NCBI GenBank assembly: GCA_947494325.1
Contig: CANLUS010000001.1
Coordinates: 930,001-994,000 of the forward strand
Length of the DNA: 64,000 nucleotides
Direction: 5' to 3'
Origin: an uncultured Flavobacteriaceae bacterium
GTDB lineage: Bacteria > Bacteroidota > Bacteroidia > Flavobacteriales > Flavobacteriaceae
Both the position numbers and the translations under genes were made by a program. A model generated the notes under the pieces. The model had not been told where the DNA came from and did no database searches. It saw only the letters and a program-made list of their open reading frames with translations. Positions 5,557 through 11,024 of the stretch are shown here, piece by piece; the stretch's first letter is position 1; every line of letters starts with the position of its first letter.

Positions 5557-5578
5557 ATTTTTAGACATGTCTAAAAAT
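5557..5578. promoter_or_regulatory. Operator palindrome for the DtxR/MntR-type repressor
   Basis: A perfect 22-base inverted repeat with core TTTAGACATGTCTAAA. It lies immediately upstream of the -7 box of the regulator gene, i.e. in the -33/-7 spacer, where a bound repressor would block RNA polymerase. Size, symmetry and position are those expected of a DtxR/MntR-family operator. That it binds the adjacent gene's product is inference. Confidence 0.7.
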
Positions 5579-5583
5579 ATTTT

Positions 5584-5591
5584 TATATTTG
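5584..5591 (+). promoter_or_regulatory. -7 box of the metal-uptake operon promoter
   Basis: TATATTTG matches TAnnTTTG. Transcription would start near 5597, leaving about 10 bases before the preferred ATG at 5606. This argues against the upstream in-frame ATG at 5567, which lies inside the operator. Confidence 0.6.
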
Positions 5592-5605
5592 TCAAAAATA
5601 AGAAT

Positions 5606-6274
5606 ATGCTTTCTCAGGCAGAAGAAAATTATTTAAAGGCCATTTATTCGCTAGAATCAGATTTAGCGAAAGCTATTAGCACGAATTTGATTGCTAAAAA
5701 AATGCAAACAAAAGCTTCTTCCGTTACTGATATGATCAAAAAACTGTCTGATAAAGAATTAGTTAATTATAAAAAGTATCAAGGAGTACAATTGTCTGAA
5801 GAAGGAAAAAAAATAGCTATTTCTATTGTAAGAAAACATCGTCTTTGGGAATGTTTTCTGGTCGATAAACTAAACTTCTCTTGGGATGAAGTACATGATA
5901 TTGCAGAACAATTAGAGCATATACAATCAGAAACTTTAGTAGACAATCTAGATGCCTTTTTAGAGTTTCCGTCACATGATCCACATGGAGATCCCATTCC
6001 AGATAAGAATGGATATATGTACAAGAGAAAGAAAGTTGCTTTGTCAACGTTGAACCCTCAAGACGAAACTGTATTGCTTGGTGTTAAAGATTCATCAGAT
6101 GCTTTTTTAAAATATCTAAACAAAAAAAATATCGCCATTGGAAATACCATCAAAGTGCAAAGCATAGAGTTATTTGATAAATCAATGGAAATAACAATTA
6201 ACAATCACCTAATTTCAATTACCAACCAAGTAGCTGAAAATTTGATGGTAAAAGAACTAGAATTTAAATATTAA
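5606..6274 (+). CDS. DtxR/MntR-family metal-dependent transcriptional repressor
   Basis: A 222-residue metal-sensing repressor that presumably shuts off the downstream transporter operon when manganese (or iron/zinc) is plentiful. The N-terminal winged helix (LIAKKMQTKASSVTDMIKKL), the metal-binding/dimerisation domain (VRKHRLWECFLVDKL, FPSHDPHGDPIP) and a C-terminal FeoA/SH3-like part are all present, as in long DtxR-type proteins. I chose ATG 5606 (MLSQAEENYLKAIYSL) because it aligns with the usual family start and because the alternative ATG at 5567 sits inside the operator and upstream of the predicted transcription start. It is followed one base later by the barrel protein gene, so it is the first gene of the operon and is probably autoregulated. 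Mn as the co-repressor is inferred from the transporter, not proven. Confidence 0.88.
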   Translation: MLSQAEENYLKAIYSLESDLAKAISTNLIAKKMQTKASSVTDMIKKLSDKELVNYKKYQGVQLSEEGKKIAISIVRKHRLWECFLVDKLNFSWDEVHDIAEQLEHIQSETLVDNLDAFLEFPSHDPHGDPIPDKNGYMYKRKKVALSTLNPQDETVLLGVKDSSDAFLKYLNKKNIAIGNTIKVQSIELFDKSMEITINNHLISITNQVAENLMVKELEFKY

Positions 6275-6275
6275 G

Positions 6276-7073
6276 ATGATAAAGAAAAGTTTATTCATTT
6301 TTTCCTTGGTATTTGTACTAGGTATAAATGCGCAAGAACAACTAAGAGAAAAGGATTATGGAACTATTAATACCGATAGACCCGACCAAACAGAAGCTTC
6401 GAGCTTGGTTCCTAAGAGTTTTTTACAAATAGAGACGGGTGCTTTTTATGAAAGCTTAGAAGTTAATGAATTAAAGACTAAAGCAACGACGTATAATACA
6501 ACTTTGCTTAGATATGGCTTGTTGGAGAATTTAGAGCTGAGGTTAGGCTTCGATTTTACAGACGTTAAAGGTGAATTTAGAGGAATTGAATTAAGTGATA
6601 AATTGAGTGGGTTTTCACCCTTATTGCTAGGGGTGAAAATAGGAATTTCCGAAGAAAATGGAGCATTGCCAGAAATTGCCTTTATTGGGCATGTGAACCT
6701 CCCTGGATTCGCTTCAAATGATTTTAAAACGAAAAGTACAGGTACCGATTTTAGGTTTTCCTTAGCACACACATTAAGTGAAAAGTCTAGTTTAGGTTAT
6801 AATATTGGCATGGCTTGGGATGGAGATATCACTACAGCTAGTTATTTATATACGTTTGCTTATGGGTATAGTATTTCTGATAAAGTAGGAACTTATATTG
6901 AATTGTATGGAGATATTCCGGAAAACAGTAGCTTCAAACATCTATGGGATGCTGGTTTTACATATTTAGTCAATGATAATATTCAGTTAGATATCTCAGG
7001 AGGAACTGGGATTACTAAGAACGTCCAAGATCTTTTTTTAAGTGCCGGAATAAGTGTTAGAATACCAGAATAA
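6276..7073 (+). CDS. Outer-membrane beta-barrel protein of the MetA-pathway/transporter (PF13557-like) type
   Basis: A 265-residue protein with a cleavable signal peptide (first ~20 residues, ending near INAQ) and then alternating amphipathic strands throughout, finishing SAGISVRIPE. The stretch TDRPDQTEASSLVP is typical of Bacteroidota proteins annotated as transporter or putative MetA-pathway barrel. It lies one base after the repressor and just before the lipoprotein of a metal ABC transporter, so it may be the outer-membrane pore by which the metal reaches the periplasm. That role is inferred from position only. Its 3' end slightly precedes the lipoprotein start. Confidence 0.7.
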   Translation: MIKKSLFIFSLVFVLGINAQEQLREKDYGTINTDRPDQTEASSLVPKSFLQIETGAFYESLEVNELKTKATTYNTTLLRYGLLENLELRLGFDFTDVKGEFRGIELSDKLSGFSPLLLGVKIGISEENGALPEIAFIGHVNLPGFASNDFKTKSTGTDFRFSLAHTLSEKSSLGYNIGMAWDGDITTASYLYTFAYGYSISDKVGTYIELYGDIPENSSFKHLWDAGFTYLVNDNIQLDISGGTGITKNVQDLFLSAGISVRIPE

Positions 7074-7077
7074 TAAA

Positions 7078-7998
7078 ATGAATGACATGAAAAAATATAT
7101 ACTGATTTTAATTACGCTAGCGATTGTTAGTTGTAAACCATCGCAAAAAGAAGAAAATCAAAAATTACAAGTAGTTACTACAACAACTATGATTACAGAC
7201 TTACTTCGAAACATTGGTGGAGATAAAATTGATGTAAAGGGTTTAATGGGTACCGGTGTGGACCCTCATTTGTATAAGGCAAGCGAAGGAGATGTTAGCA
7301 AATTATTCAATGCCGATGTTATTGTATATAATGGGTTACATCTAGAAGGTAAGTTGGAAGACGTTTTTGAAAAAATGCGTGGGCAAAACAAAAAAACGAT
7401 AGCAGTATCTGATGTAATAGATAAAAGTACGCTCATAGGATCAGAATATTTTGCTTCAAATTACGATCCGCATATATGGTTCGATATATCAAACTGGAAA
7501 CAGATTACATCGTATGTTGTTGAAAAATTATCAGAGCTTGATGTTGAAAATGCCGACACATTTGAAACAAATGGAAAAGCATATTTAGAAAAATTATCTA
7601 GTTTACAAAGAACAATTGAGTCGAGTGTAGCAAAGTTACCAATAGAACAGAGGATTTTAGTGACTGCTCATGATGCTTTTAATTATTTTGGAAAAGCTTT
7701 TGAATTTGAAGTGGTAGGTTTACAAGGTTTATCTACAGCAACAGAAGCAGGTGTTAAAGATGTTCAAAAGATGGCGGGCTTTATTATTGAAAAAGATATC
7801 AAAGCAATTTTTGTTGAGAGTTCTGTCCCGAAACGTACGATTGAAGCGCTGGTTGAAGCGGTAAAATCAAAAGGTCATGATGTTGAAATTGGCGGTACGT
7901 TATATTCGGACGCTCTTGGGAGTGATGGTACCAAAGAAGGGACCTATTTGGGAATGTACCAATACAACGTGCAAACTATTGTAAATTCATTGAGGTAG
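7078..7998 (+). CDS. Metal ABC transporter substrate-binding lipoprotein (TroA/ZnuA family)
   Basis: Periplasmic metal-capture protein of a manganese/zinc ABC transporter. The signal peptide ends in the lipobox AIVSC, so it is a lipoprotein. The likely metal ligands are the His in GVDPHLY, the His in DPHIWFD, the His in TAHDAFNYF and the Asp in LYSDALG; this His3-Asp set resembles TroA (Zn/Mn) rather than the His2-Glu-Asp of MntA/PsaA, and there is no His-rich loop as in ZnuA. I chose ATG 7078 (MNDMKKYIL); ATG 7087 is equally good, while an in-frame ATG at 7054 lies inside the previous gene. Confidence 0.92.
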
Positions 7999-8000
7999 TT

Positions 8001-8741
8001 ATGGAAAACAAAAAACTTGCAGTATCTGTCGATGATTTAACAGTGGCTTATAATTATAAACCTGTATTATGGGATATAGATTTGGCGATACCTGAGGGCG
8101 TTTTAATGGCAATTGTTGGTCCTAATGGAGCTGGTAAATCAACTTTGATAAAGTCAATATTAGGAATTATTAATCCAATTGCAGGAAGTATTTCAATTTA
8201 TGGGAAGCCTTATGACGAACAACGTAAATTAGTTGCATATGTTCCTCAAAAAGGAAGTGTTGATTGGGATTTTCCAACAACCGCATTAGACGTCGTGAAG
8301 ATGGGTACCTATGGAAGTCTAGGTTGGATTAAGAGACCAAGACAAAAGGAGAAAAAAGCGGCGTTGGAAGCATTAGAAAAAGTAGGGATGTTAGCTTTTA
8401 AAGACCGCCAAATAAGTCAGCTATCAGGAGGGCAGCAACAACGTATTTTTTTGGCGAGAGCGCTTGTTCAAAATGCCTCTATATATTTCATGGATGAGCC
8501 ATTTCAAGGGGTAGATGCAACGACCGAAATTGCGATTATAAATATTTTAAAAGAGTTAAGAAAATCCGGTAAAACAGTTATCGTAGTGCATCATGATTTA
8601 CAAACAGTGCCTGAGTATTTTGATTGGGTTACTTTTTTAAATGTAAAAAAGATTGCAACGGGCCCTGTGAAAGATATTTTTAATGACGATAACTTAACTA
8701 AAACATACGGAATCAATTATAAAGTGAGTGTTCAACAGTAA
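8001..8741 (+). CDS. Metal ABC transporter ATP-binding protein
   Basis: The 246-residue ATPase of the Mn/Zn ABC importer. Walker A (GPNGAGKST), the Q-loop (YVPQKG), the ABC signature (LSGGQQQR), Walker B (IYFMDEP) and the H-loop (VVHHD) are all intact. It begins two bases after the lipoprotein stop, and its stop codon shares one base with the start of the first permease (TAATG), which indicates translational coupling. Confidence 0.95.
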
Positions 8742-9871
8742 TGGAATTACAGGAATATTTTAGACTAGTTTTTACCGATTACACGCTTCGTACAATCACC
8801 TTAGGAACGGCGATTTTGGGTGCAATTTGTGGTATGCTCGGTAGTTTTGCAGTACTGCGGAAACAGAGTTTACTTGGTGATGCCATTTCTCATGCCGCTT
8901 TGCCCGGAATTGCTATAGCTTTTTTAATTACTGGAACAAAAGAAACGAATGTGTTACTATTAGGAGCATTAATTAGTGGACTTATTGGTGCTTTTTGGAT
9001 TCGTGGAATTACTAGAAATACACATCTAAAGTCGGATACGGCGCTGGGGTTGATTCTGTCGCTATTTTTTGGCTTTGGAATGCTGCTTTTAACCTTTATA
9101 CAAAAGCAACCGAACGCAAATCAATCAGGTCTAGATAAATTTTTATTTGGACAGGCAGCAACTTTATTGGCAAGAGATGTTTGGTTCATGGCAATCGTAA
9201 CAGGTGTTTGTCTCATTATTTTAATTCTCTTTTGGAAAGAGTTCAAACTATTATTATTTGATGCCGACTATACCAAAACATTAGGTTTTAATACGAAGTT
9301 TATAGATATTTTAATCACATCATTTATTGTATTGGCAATTGTTTTAGGACTCCAAACAGTGGGCGTAGTATTAATGAGTGCCATGTTATTAGCTCCGGCT
9401 GCTGCTGCGAGGCAATGGACCAATAGTTTAAGTGTCATGGTAATTTTAGCAGCCATTTTTGGCGCCTTAGCTGGTGTAGTTGGAACTGGTATAAGCGCAA
9501 GTCAAGATAATTTGTCAACTGGACCAGTGATTGTGCTCGTAGCGGCCGTTTTTGTTGTTGTTTCCTTCATATTCTCTCCATCGAGAGGCTTATTATTTCG
9601 CCAAATTCGATTCATTCAAAACCGAAAAGATTTACAGTTACATAAAACTTTGGCATTTATGTATGACATAGCAAAAACACATGAAGATAAATCACATCCT
9701 CACGCTATTAAAATATTGAATAATTTTCATGGATTTACTAGAAAATCACTACAAAAATTAGAGTCAAAAAATTATATCGAGCTTGATGGTCAAATGTGGT
9801 CGATGACCCAAAACGGATATCATTTTGCAGCAAATTTATACAATCAACAACTAAGTACAAACAATGACTAG
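8741..9871 (+). CDS. Metal ABC transporter permease 1 with C-terminal winged-helix-like tail
   Basis: Inner-membrane permease of the ABC-3 family with about eight hydrophobic segments in residues 1-285, including the conserved GDAISHAALPGIAIAF region. At 376 residues it is roughly 90 longer than a plain MntC/ZnuB-type permease. The extra part (from about 284; LHKTLAFMYDIAKTH ... FTRKSLQKLESKNYIEL ... WSMTQNGYHFA) has the helix-turn-helix plus wing pattern of a DtxR-type winged helix and should lie in the cytoplasm. The gene overlaps the next permease by 8 bases. Confidence 0.92.
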   Translation: MELQEYFRLVFTDYTLRTITLGTAILGAICGMLGSFAVLRKQSLLGDAISHAALPGIAIAFLITGTKETNVLLLGALISGLIGAFWIRGITRNTHLKSDTALGLILSLFFGFGMLLLTFIQKQPNANQSGLDKFLFGQAATLLARDVWFMAIVTGVCLIILILFWKEFKLLLFDADYTKTLGFNTKFIDILITSFIVLAIVLGLQTVGVVLMSAMLLAPAAAARQWTNSLSVMVILAAIFGALAGVVGTGISASQDNLSTGPVIVLVAAVFVVVSFIFSPSRGLLFRQIRFIQNRKDLQLHKTLAFMYDIAKTHEDKSHPHAIKILNNFHGFTRKSLQKLESKNYIELDGQMWSMTQNGYHFAANLYNQQLSTNND

Positions 9872-11024
9872 CGCTCAAATAGAAATACAACTTATTGCCA
9901 GTGTGGTCGCTGTTGCATGTGCCATTCCTGGTACTTTTTTAGTACTCAGAAAAATGGCTCTAATTAGTGACGCTATTAGTCACTCCATATTGCCAGGATT
10001 GGTAATTGGATTTTTTATTACACATGATTTAAGTTCTCCTTTGCTAATTATTTTAGCTGCTTTATCTGGTTTAGTTACTGTTATTTTAGTTGAGTTTATT
10101 CAAAAAACTGGACTCGTAAAGGAAGATACTGCAATAGGTTTGGTATTTCCAGCTTTGTTCAGTATTGGTATTATATTAATTGCCAAAAACGCAAATGATG
10201 TGCATCTAGATGTCGATGCTGTATTATTGGGAGAATTGGCTTTTGCACCATTCGATAGGTTGCTTGTAGATGGTATTGATTTTGGACCAAAGTCTTTATG
10301 GATTATTGGAAGTATTTTAACAATAACAGTGGTCTTATTAATGGCTTTTTTTAAAGAATTAAAGGTAAGTACCTTTGATGCTGGCTTGGCTACTGCTTTA
10401 GGTTTTTCTCCAGCAGTATTGCATTATGGATTGATGAGTGTGGCTTCGGTAACAACTGTTGGCGCCTTTGATGCAGTCGGTGCTATTTTGGTGGTTGCTT
10501 TAATGATTGCGCCAGCTGCGACGGCATATCTTCTAACAAATGATTTAAAGAAAATGTTGTTCTTATCTATTGGTTTTGGCGTTTTATCGGCTATAAGTGG
10601 GTATTGGTTAGCACATTGGTTAGATGCTTCTATATCGGGTTCTATGACCACTGTTTTAGGGGTATTGTTTTTATTGGTGTATTTGTTTGCTCCCAATAGA
10701 GGATTATTATCAGTTTTATATCGTAATAAACAGCAAAGACTAGAAGTTTCTTTACTTACTTTTTTATTACATCTAAACAATCATTCTGAAGTAGAAGAGC
10801 GTCATATCAATCACCTAAATGAACATATAAACTGGCAAAAGGTTCGTTCAAAATCGGTAGTAGATTTAGCCTTGAAAAATAATATGATTACCATAGATGA
10901 TAGTATTATTTCTTTGACCGAAAAAGGAACTTCTTTTACAAATAAGGCGATCGATTATATTATTACGAATGATGATACAGGAATAGAATCTATGAAAGAA
11001 GATTTCTTCTTATTTCGAGGATAG
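9864..11024 (+). CDS. Metal ABC transporter permease 2 with C-terminal tail
   Basis: Second ABC-3 family permease, 386 residues, pairing with the first to form a heterodimeric channel as in TroCD. The core has the conserved SDAISHSILPGLVIGF segment and about eight membrane spans. After about residue 280 there is a soluble region of about 105 residues (LEVSLLTFLLHLNNH ... VVDLALKNNMITID ... SLTEKGTSFT) that again resembles a winged helix, though more diverged than in permease 1. It is the last gene of the metal operon; the next gene has its own promoter-like box in the 38-bp gap. Confidence 0.92.
   Translation: MTSAQIEIQLIASVVAVACAIPGTFLVLRKMALISDAISHSILPGLVIGFFITHDLSSPLLIILAALSGLVTVILVEFIQKTGLVKEDTAIGLVFPALFSIGIILIAKNANDVHLDVDAVLLGELAFAPFDRLLVDGIDFGPKSLWIIGSILTITVVLLMAFFKELKVSTFDAGLATALGFSPAVLHYGLMSVASVTTVGAFDAVGAILVVALMIAPAATAYLLTNDLKKMLFLSIGFGVLSAISGYWLAHWLDASISGSMTTVLGVLFLLVYLFAPNRGLLSVLYRNKQQRLEVSLLTFLLHLNNHSEVEERHINHLNEHINWQKVRSKSVVDLALKNNMITIDDSIISLTEKGTSFTNKAIDYIITNDDTGIESMKEDFFLFRG

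Follow-up and report, generated by a model that had tools for sequence, protein, structure and literature searches.

Paired winged-helix tails on the two permeases of a flavobacterial ABC-3 metal importer: apparent DtxR descent and a possible role in regulating transport

The locus described here raises the question of what the long C-terminal tails of two neighboring ABC-3 metal permeases are, where they came from, and what they may do for the importer. It lies in a stretch of 64,000 nucleotides, referred to as the window, from an uncultured Flavobacteriaceae bacterium with a 3.64-Mb genome, the named relatives of which are Flavobacteriaceae such as Tenacibaculum, Polaribacter, and Aquimarina. 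From position 5567 to position 11024, the forward strand carries, in this order, the genes for a DtxR-type repressor, a Phenol_MetA_deg-type protein, a ZnuA-type binding protein, an ABC ATPase, and two ABC-3 permeases (P1 and P2), the start of the P2 gene overlapping the end of the P1 gene (Table 1). The repressor is the only PF02742 match found in the genome. The Phenol_MetA_deg-type protein (PF13557, 6276–7073), the gene for which follows that of the repressor and precedes that of the binding protein, may serve the importer as its port in the outer membrane. A FeoB-like protein and Nramp matches were found elsewhere in the genome, so that the importer is one of several metal routes, and a third, weak ABC-3 match was noted outside the window (G000:C4:118634-119284; 29.9 bits; frame of 346 aa). 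In the ATPase (246 aa), the ABC_tran match spans residues 25–168 and no regulatory domain was found among the Pfam matches; the added domains sit on the permeases. Both permeases extend by ~95–110 residues beyond the ABC-3 domain, in agreement with the preliminary description, which had taken them to be longer than standard, the tails comprising 94 and 107 residues past the core; the range given there for them, 9590–11021, does hold the tails but also spans the membrane part of P2. By the positive-inside rule, a juxtamembrane stretch rich in Arg and Lys marks the cytoplasmic side of a membrane protein, and, since both permeases have such a stretch, we infer from the sequence a cytoplasmic location of the tails.

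Table 1. Positions of the importer genes, the permease tails, and their conserved His residues in the window
Feature	Positions	Strand	Evidence
Free DtxR/MntR-type repressor (HTH, metal/dimer domain, FeoA)	5567..6274	+	PF01325, PF02742, PF04023 above cut-off
ZnuA-type metal-binding protein	7054..7998	+	PF01297, E 7.5e-78
ABC ATPase	8001..8741	+	PF00005, E 4.5e-31
Permease 1 (P1), 376 aa, ABC-3 core residues 15-278 and tail	8741..9871	+	PF00950, E 7.9e-74
P1 tail, predicted winged helix, residues 283-376 (94 residues)	9587..9868	+	AlphaFold2, VIA-align, hhalign to DtxR
P1 His314, just after helix 1	9680..9682	+	H in 43/43 aligned tails
P1 His321 (last His of HPH), just before helix 2	9701..9703	+	H in 43/43
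Permease 2 (P2), 386 aa, ABC-3 core residues 10-275 and tail	9864..11024	+	PF00950, E 5.7e-50
P2 tail, predicted winged helix, residues 280-386 (107 residues)	10701..11021	+	AlphaFold2, VIA-align
P2 HxxxH pair, His303 and His307, end of helix 1	10770..10784	+	H in 32/32 and 32/32
P2 HxxxH pair, His317 and His321, helix 2	10812..10826	+	H in 29/32 and 30/32

From alignments of 43 (P1 tail) and 32 (P2 tail) rows, the window included, AlphaFold2 folded both tails in the order helix-helix-helix-strand-strand-helix, the two strands forming the wing, with a mean pLDDT of 87.3 and a pTM of 0.73 for the P1 tail, and a mean pLDDT of 83.5 and a pTM of 0.76 for the P2 tail. The winged-helix tails of the preliminary description were, thus, reproduced by the predictions, which are of ordered winged helices for both and speak against unrelated or disordered tails. 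In VIA-align, winged-helix regulators predominated among the rows listed, with Z of 8.6–10.4 for the P1 tail and 9.4–10.8 for the P2 tail, values of a size that can be common for helical models. E. coli MntR (2h09) was aligned at Z 9.4 (P1 tail) and 10.2 (P2 tail), and Mn-bound B. subtilis MntR (2f5c) was aligned with the P1 tail at Z 9.1; MarR-type chains equaled MntR in these rows. With Foldseek, neither model had a match at E ≤ 0.001, the top ranks (E > 0.001) being MarR, CggR, and other winged helices. Because the winged-helix fold is common to many families, the assignment to DtxR rests on profiles and intermediates and not on the fold alone. The P2 tail has an extra C-terminal helix (10974–11021), which ends in FFLFRG and is present in 8 of the 32 aligned rows, including that of the window; the FFLFRG ending is confined to close relatives and is missing from the 24 more distant aligned P2 tails.

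The bare tails gave nothing above the curated cut-offs of Pfam and NCBIfam, and phmmer against PDB gave sub-threshold matches or none for them. Neither PF01325 nor PF02742 was matched in either tail, PF02742 being sought at E up to 1, and the sequence of P1 stops after the wing and one helix. The search of PDB with a P1-tail profile, in which ribosomal protein S19e came first (E 0.0048), followed by ScaR (0.028) and SloR (0.17), does not settle the family. Intermediates were provided by permeases of other Bacteroidota with a complete DtxR tail (winged helix and metal/dimer domain; full tail), which is borne by P1 alone or, in regions with a single ABC-3 permease, by that one. In hhalign comparisons, run with 14 juxtamembrane residues trimmed because their likeness stems from that of the permeases, and with 60 column shuffles each as nulls, the P1 tail scored 37.1 (shuffle maximum 14.6) and the P2 tail 24.9 (shuffle maximum 12.8) against the N-terminal domains of 25 free DtxR proteins, the repressor of the window included. 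Against the profile of full permease tails, which has only 6 rows, the scores were 64.5 (shuffle maximum 20.5) and 39.3 (shuffle maximum 16.5), respectively, and the two tails scored 37.7 (shuffle maximum 17.7) against each other. These values uphold the earlier view of the P1 tail as akin to the DtxR N-terminal domain and of the P2 tail as a diverged version. The hhalign probability of the P2 tail was 39% against free DtxR alone versus 93% against full tails, which suggests that it is tied to the DtxR N-terminal domain mainly through relatives and more weakly than the P1 tail. By these comparisons, the tails appear to go back to a metalloregulator of the DtxR family that became fused to an ABC-3 metal permease. 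As the P1 tail is nearer to the full permease tails (64.5) than to free DtxR (37.1), its inheritance within the permease is more likely than a fresh copying from the neighboring repressor; of the proposal that the tails came from a duplicated repressor, the repressor origin is, therefore, supported and a fresh copy is the less likely route.

To describe the spread of the tails, 296 genomes were searched with P1- and P2-tail profiles, which were built partly from the genomes then searched, so that the E-values are flattering for known members. Strong matches to both tails were found in the same 29 genomes, at E 6.5e-13 or better for the P1 tail, where they were read as P1 tails, and at E 1.9e-25 or better for the P2 tail; at least 28 of these 29 genomes also match a DtxR-FeoA query somewhere at E 2e-15 or better. 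The next tier of the P1-tail search consisted of 9 full-tail permeases (439–516 aa) and 21 frames of 215–238 aa, at least 11 of which are at places also matched by the DtxR-FeoA query, and the remaining weak rows were P2 tails of one family (f14), a contig-end fragment, and a one-helix DtxR-FeoA protein. Among the 120 genomes of the family, a P1 match was present in 52 and reached the tail in 51, and the second permease match was also tailed in 50 of these 51, that of the exception (G041) being broken by a stop; the remaining one of the 52 genomes (G022) has a tail-less permease. Another genome of the same genus as the window (G119) has no P1 match and has a membrane DtxR-FeoA protein and a FeoB-like GTPase. 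In the named family loci, taken as the best 80 of 537 from a scan by peptide patterns, two of them derived from the P1 tail, a scan that, hence, favors tailed permeases and is blind to the frequency of absence, both permeases were found in 77 of 80 and both frames were of tail length in all 77; a DtxR gene lies beside the operon in 48 of 78 such loci.

A phylum survey of 35 fetched regions gave the layout of the window in 16, one of them (L147) with a tail-less P1, a full tail on P1 together with a tail-less P2 in 10, a single ABC-3 permease with a full tail in 8, and a lone tail-less permease in 1. For two of the eight lone full-tail regions (L163 and L164), a second permease match is present elsewhere in the genome. 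A DtxR frame was found beside the operon in 4 of the 16 window-type regions, 9 of the 10 with a full-tail P1, and 3 of the 8 with a lone full-tail permease. Partial versions were seen on plasmids, the best tailed records of which are from Deinococcus, Halomonas, and Paracoccus. In a tree of the permease cores, made by a quick method from 79 rows (77 different), with long branches flagged and mixed support of the forks, the short P1 tails and three tail-less rows formed one set (SH-aLRT 99) among the full-tail P1 rows, and 25 short-tailed P2 rows formed a set (support 86) beside 10 tail-less P2 rows. The four tail states required 7 changes on this tree versus a mean of 29 in shuffles, and this pattern indicates that the loss of the metal/dimer domain from P1 and the presence of a tail on P2 go together. 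Because full tails are found on both sides of the P1/P2 split, copying of the P2 tail from P1 and its retention from a common ancestor are both compatible with the tree.

The full tails of the relatives suggest which function the ancestral fusion may have had. PF02742 was above the cut-off in all four full-tail permeases scanned, and PF01325 was not listed for the same four at E up to 0.1. At the ligand positions, in SloR numbering, H76, E80, H95, E102, and H103 are each kept in 18 of 18 full tails and E99 in 16 (D in 2); at a further ligand position, D7, the full tails have Asn in 11 and Asp in 5, and free DtxR proteins are similar, with Asn in 15 of 25 and Asp in 10 of 25. The signature of the free DtxR proteins (25 representatives), namely Ala28 (25/25), Thr or Ser39 (24/25), Met41 (25/25), and the wing Tyr56 (25/25), is in contrast lost from the full tails, in which the Ala is present in 3 of 18 and the recognition-helix Met and the wing Tyr in none of the 18. 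We read the full tails as having kept metal sensing and given up DNA reading, and, with six ligands kept and the DNA-recognition signature lost, the full tail most likely senses metal and acts on the transporter. In two regions (L161:5307-6791 and L162:5139-6626), the only ABC-3 permease (494–495 aa) has a tail that is a complete DtxR including FeoA, as assigned by Pfam for the former and by length and sequence for the latter. If such a lone full-tail pump is a homodimer, its tails could pair as DtxR does.

The same data bear on the possibility that the window tails are clipped off as transcription factors or hold DNA near the membrane. The C-terminal DtxR-like domain of Chlamydia YtgC, as far as its published descriptions go, is cleaved and represses DNA (PMC5599777, PMC6504234, PMC7755916), the fold of the tails is that of DNA-binding proteins, and no DtxR lies alongside 12 of the 16 fetched window-type operons. 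A complete DtxR is, however, present in the operon of the window, the tails there are devoid of the metal/dimer domain, so that a dimeric repressor would be hard to build from such pieces, and the recognition signature is missing even from the 18 full tails. Moreover, the only columns conserved at 75% or more on the third helix of the window-type tails are L55 and L58 in the P1 tail and A50 and A57 in the P2 tail, none of them polar. This kind of action is, in our view, decidedly unlikely, and DNA tethering by the tails appears disfavored.

Conservation within the window-type tails was examined in alignments that took only frames of at least 335 aa with a score above 250, tail-less permeases being left out thereby; tail numbering is converted by adding 282 for P1 and 279 for P2. 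Columns conserved at 90% or more were G1, R8, L22, H32, P38, H39, L44, L55, L58, W71, T74, and G77 in the P1 tail, and G1, Q12, H24, L25, H28, E33, H38, L39, H42, W45, L72, T73, and G76 in the P2 tail. His accounts for 4.6% of the residues of P1 tails and 6.4% of those of P2 tails, the His counts being of representatives picked by length and score. The two exceptions at P2 His321 (H42) are D and E, and Asp and Glu are also able to bind metals. In the models, the conserved His are found where helix 1 ends or beyond that point, and where helix 2 begins, and they would be close in space, judging from this hairpin. The conserved His clusters in the tails, which are probably cytoplasmic, might also be thought to take the ion leaving the channel and pass it to the cytoplasm; the origin of the winged helix from a sensor fits regulation better, and we regard such a relay as improbable. 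Outside the Bacteroidota, the motif is broken. Thus, in the Deinococcus operons (L175, L176, and L179, on plasmids), the P1 tail is a stub and the P2 tail has few or no such His, and in Halomonas, the P1 tail is without HPH and the P2 tail is absent, the P2 frame being broken; in Paracoccus, the motif is kept in part. A short free DtxR follows P2 in two of the Deinococcus operons (L175 and L176).

Both tails are under purifying selection, as indicated by a median dN/dS of 0.049 (40 pairs) for the P1 tail and 0.065 (59 pairs) for the P2 tail, calculated from non-independent pairs within set dS limits; the medians for the membrane parts were 0.031 (P1) and 0.043 (P2), so that the tails are somewhat higher. 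It is conceivable that the tails are remnants of a DtxR fusion in the course of being lost, the metal/dimer domain being already gone, P1 of Deinococcus being reduced to a stub, and the P1 tail being lost in L147, but the low dN/dS (0.05–0.07) and the invariant residues across the tail alignments make this very improbable. The strongest rival to a regulatory role is a purely structural one, in which the tails would only hold P1 together with P2 or with the ATPase, and neither a metal nor a signal would be involved. It would account for the co-occurrence of the tails in the same 29 of 296 genomes, the purifying selection, and the invariant tryptophans (P1 W353 and P2 W324), and would leave unexplained why His is conserved at the corresponding hairpin of the two tails and why the tails of relatives have an intact metal site. 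ABC-3 permeases, furthermore, exist without tails, as demonstrated by 10 P2 and 1 lone permease in the 35 fetched regions. We consider a merely structural function somewhat unlikely.

The reading that we prefer, although we see the chances for it as evenly balanced, is that the tails are a matched pair of DtxR-derived cytoplasmic winged helices that regulates the pump, probably in response to metal. A DtxR-family metalloregulator would have been fused to an ABC-3 metal permease in an ancestor, and the lineage of the window would then have lost the metal/dimer domain; in this lineage, with exceptions, each permease has a tail, and each tail has conserved His around the turn between helices 1 and 2. 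The two tails would sit together at the cytoplasmic face of the P1–P2 pair, and their binding of intracellular metal would change the activity of the pump as a feedback brake at the protein level, transcription being left to the free DtxR of the operon. This brake is suggested because the sensor is intact in relatives, the window tails have the His, the tails come as a pair, and the operon has a separate DtxR. The predicted fold, the homology, the co-occurrence, the selection, and the conservation are results of computation, whereas metal binding by the tails, tail–tail contact, and inhibition of transport are what we infer. Since the window tails are without the DtxR metal/dimer domain, they cannot sense metal in the DtxR way, and the conserved His may give them another metal site, for which the putative motifs are two HxxxH in P2 and H-x6-H in P1. 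Against the brake, only two His are invariant in P1, which are few for a standalone site, the conserved His could be structural instead, the motif is broken in the relatives outside the Bacteroidota mentioned above, P1 of one window-type operon (L147) is tail-less, and the presence of DtxR beside only 4 of 16 window-type operons and 48 of 78 family loci argues against a simple division of labor, although almost all genomes with both short tails match the DtxR-FeoA query somewhere. It also has to be considered that the trans-inhibition domains of ABC transporters named in the review consulted sit on the ATPase and not on the permease (PMC10710835).

A second case of a DtxR domain at the membrane came from the weak rows of the P2-tail search, 7 of 15 of which were read and all proved to be a membrane DtxR-FeoA protein (L186–L192; for example, L188:1850-2875 and L190:1684-2718). 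In the seven genomes read, this protein has ~340 aa and consists of one N-terminal membrane helix, indicated by hydropathy, a DtxR domain, and two FeoA domains, the latter being assigned by Pfam on three of the seven. The six metal ligands are kept in all seven and the recognition Met and wing Tyr in none, and a FeoB-like GTPase frame adjoins the gene in 7 of 7 stretches, as recognized by eye and, for L190, by Pfam; some of the stretches also hold a free DtxR. The DtxR-FeoA query gave matches at E < 1e-60 in at least 33 of the 296 genomes. The membrane helix and the residues following it resemble, by eye, the last helix of the full-tail permeases, and the protein has the appearance of a full-tail permease end that was transferred to the Feo system. 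P. gingivalis PgMntR, which has twin FeoA domains, is described in the published account as a soluble DNA-binding regulator (PMC4805248). More tentatively than the regulatory reading itself, we suggest that the tail pair of the window could be a new metal-responsive gate, which would have abandoned DNA binding and the DtxR metal site, possess its own His site, and throttle the pump directly, as part of a wider habit of Bacteroidota of placing DtxR sensors on metal transporters. If the tails do regulate the pump, they would represent a transcription factor converted into a built-in regulator of a transporter, a conversion whose intermediate stages still exist in related bacteria, and would offer a direct test of the post-translational shut-off of transition-metal importers.

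The precedent for the fusion is YtgCR of Chlamydia trachomatis, a metal permease with a C-terminal DtxR-type domain, encoded in an operon with a binding protein, an ATPase, and a second permease; according to the published descriptions, the residues by which DtxR coordinates metal are present in its YtgR part, which is released by cleavage and binds DNA (PMC5599777, PMC6504234, PMC7755916). The permease-DtxR fusion as such is, thus, already known. Among the open papers of PubMed Central, as judged by titles and abstracts, none was found on short tails on both permeases or on an ABC-3/DtxR fusion outside Chlamydia. P1 and P2 of the window share with YtgCR the N-terminal ABC-3 permease (PF00950 in both) and differ from it, by its published descriptions, in that their tails are short and without the metal/dimer domain, are present on both permeases, and are accompanied by a separate DtxR. 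If the window tails regulate the pump, YtgCR might belong with other permease-DtxR fusions in a larger set, part of which may act mainly at the membrane. The full-tail ABC-3 permeases (for example, L153, L158, and L161) are closer in that the type of importer is the same and both permease and tail are homologous, whereas they have kept PF02742 (in the four scanned) and bear the tail on P1 and not on P2, or on a permease that is alone in its region. With the DtxR/MntR repressors, the window tails share the N-terminal winged helix, by profile and predicted fold, but they are membrane-bound and without a PF01325 or PF02742 match, and the full-tail relatives have lost the DNA-recognition signature of the repressors. 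Transporters to which regulatory domains are fused are already known, and the trans-inhibited importers MetNI and ModABC carry theirs, of other folds, on the ATPase (PMC10710835). The importer of the window resembles these systems in having a fused cytoplasmic domain that could sense the substrate, and differs from them in that its added domains are on the permeases, not the ATPase.
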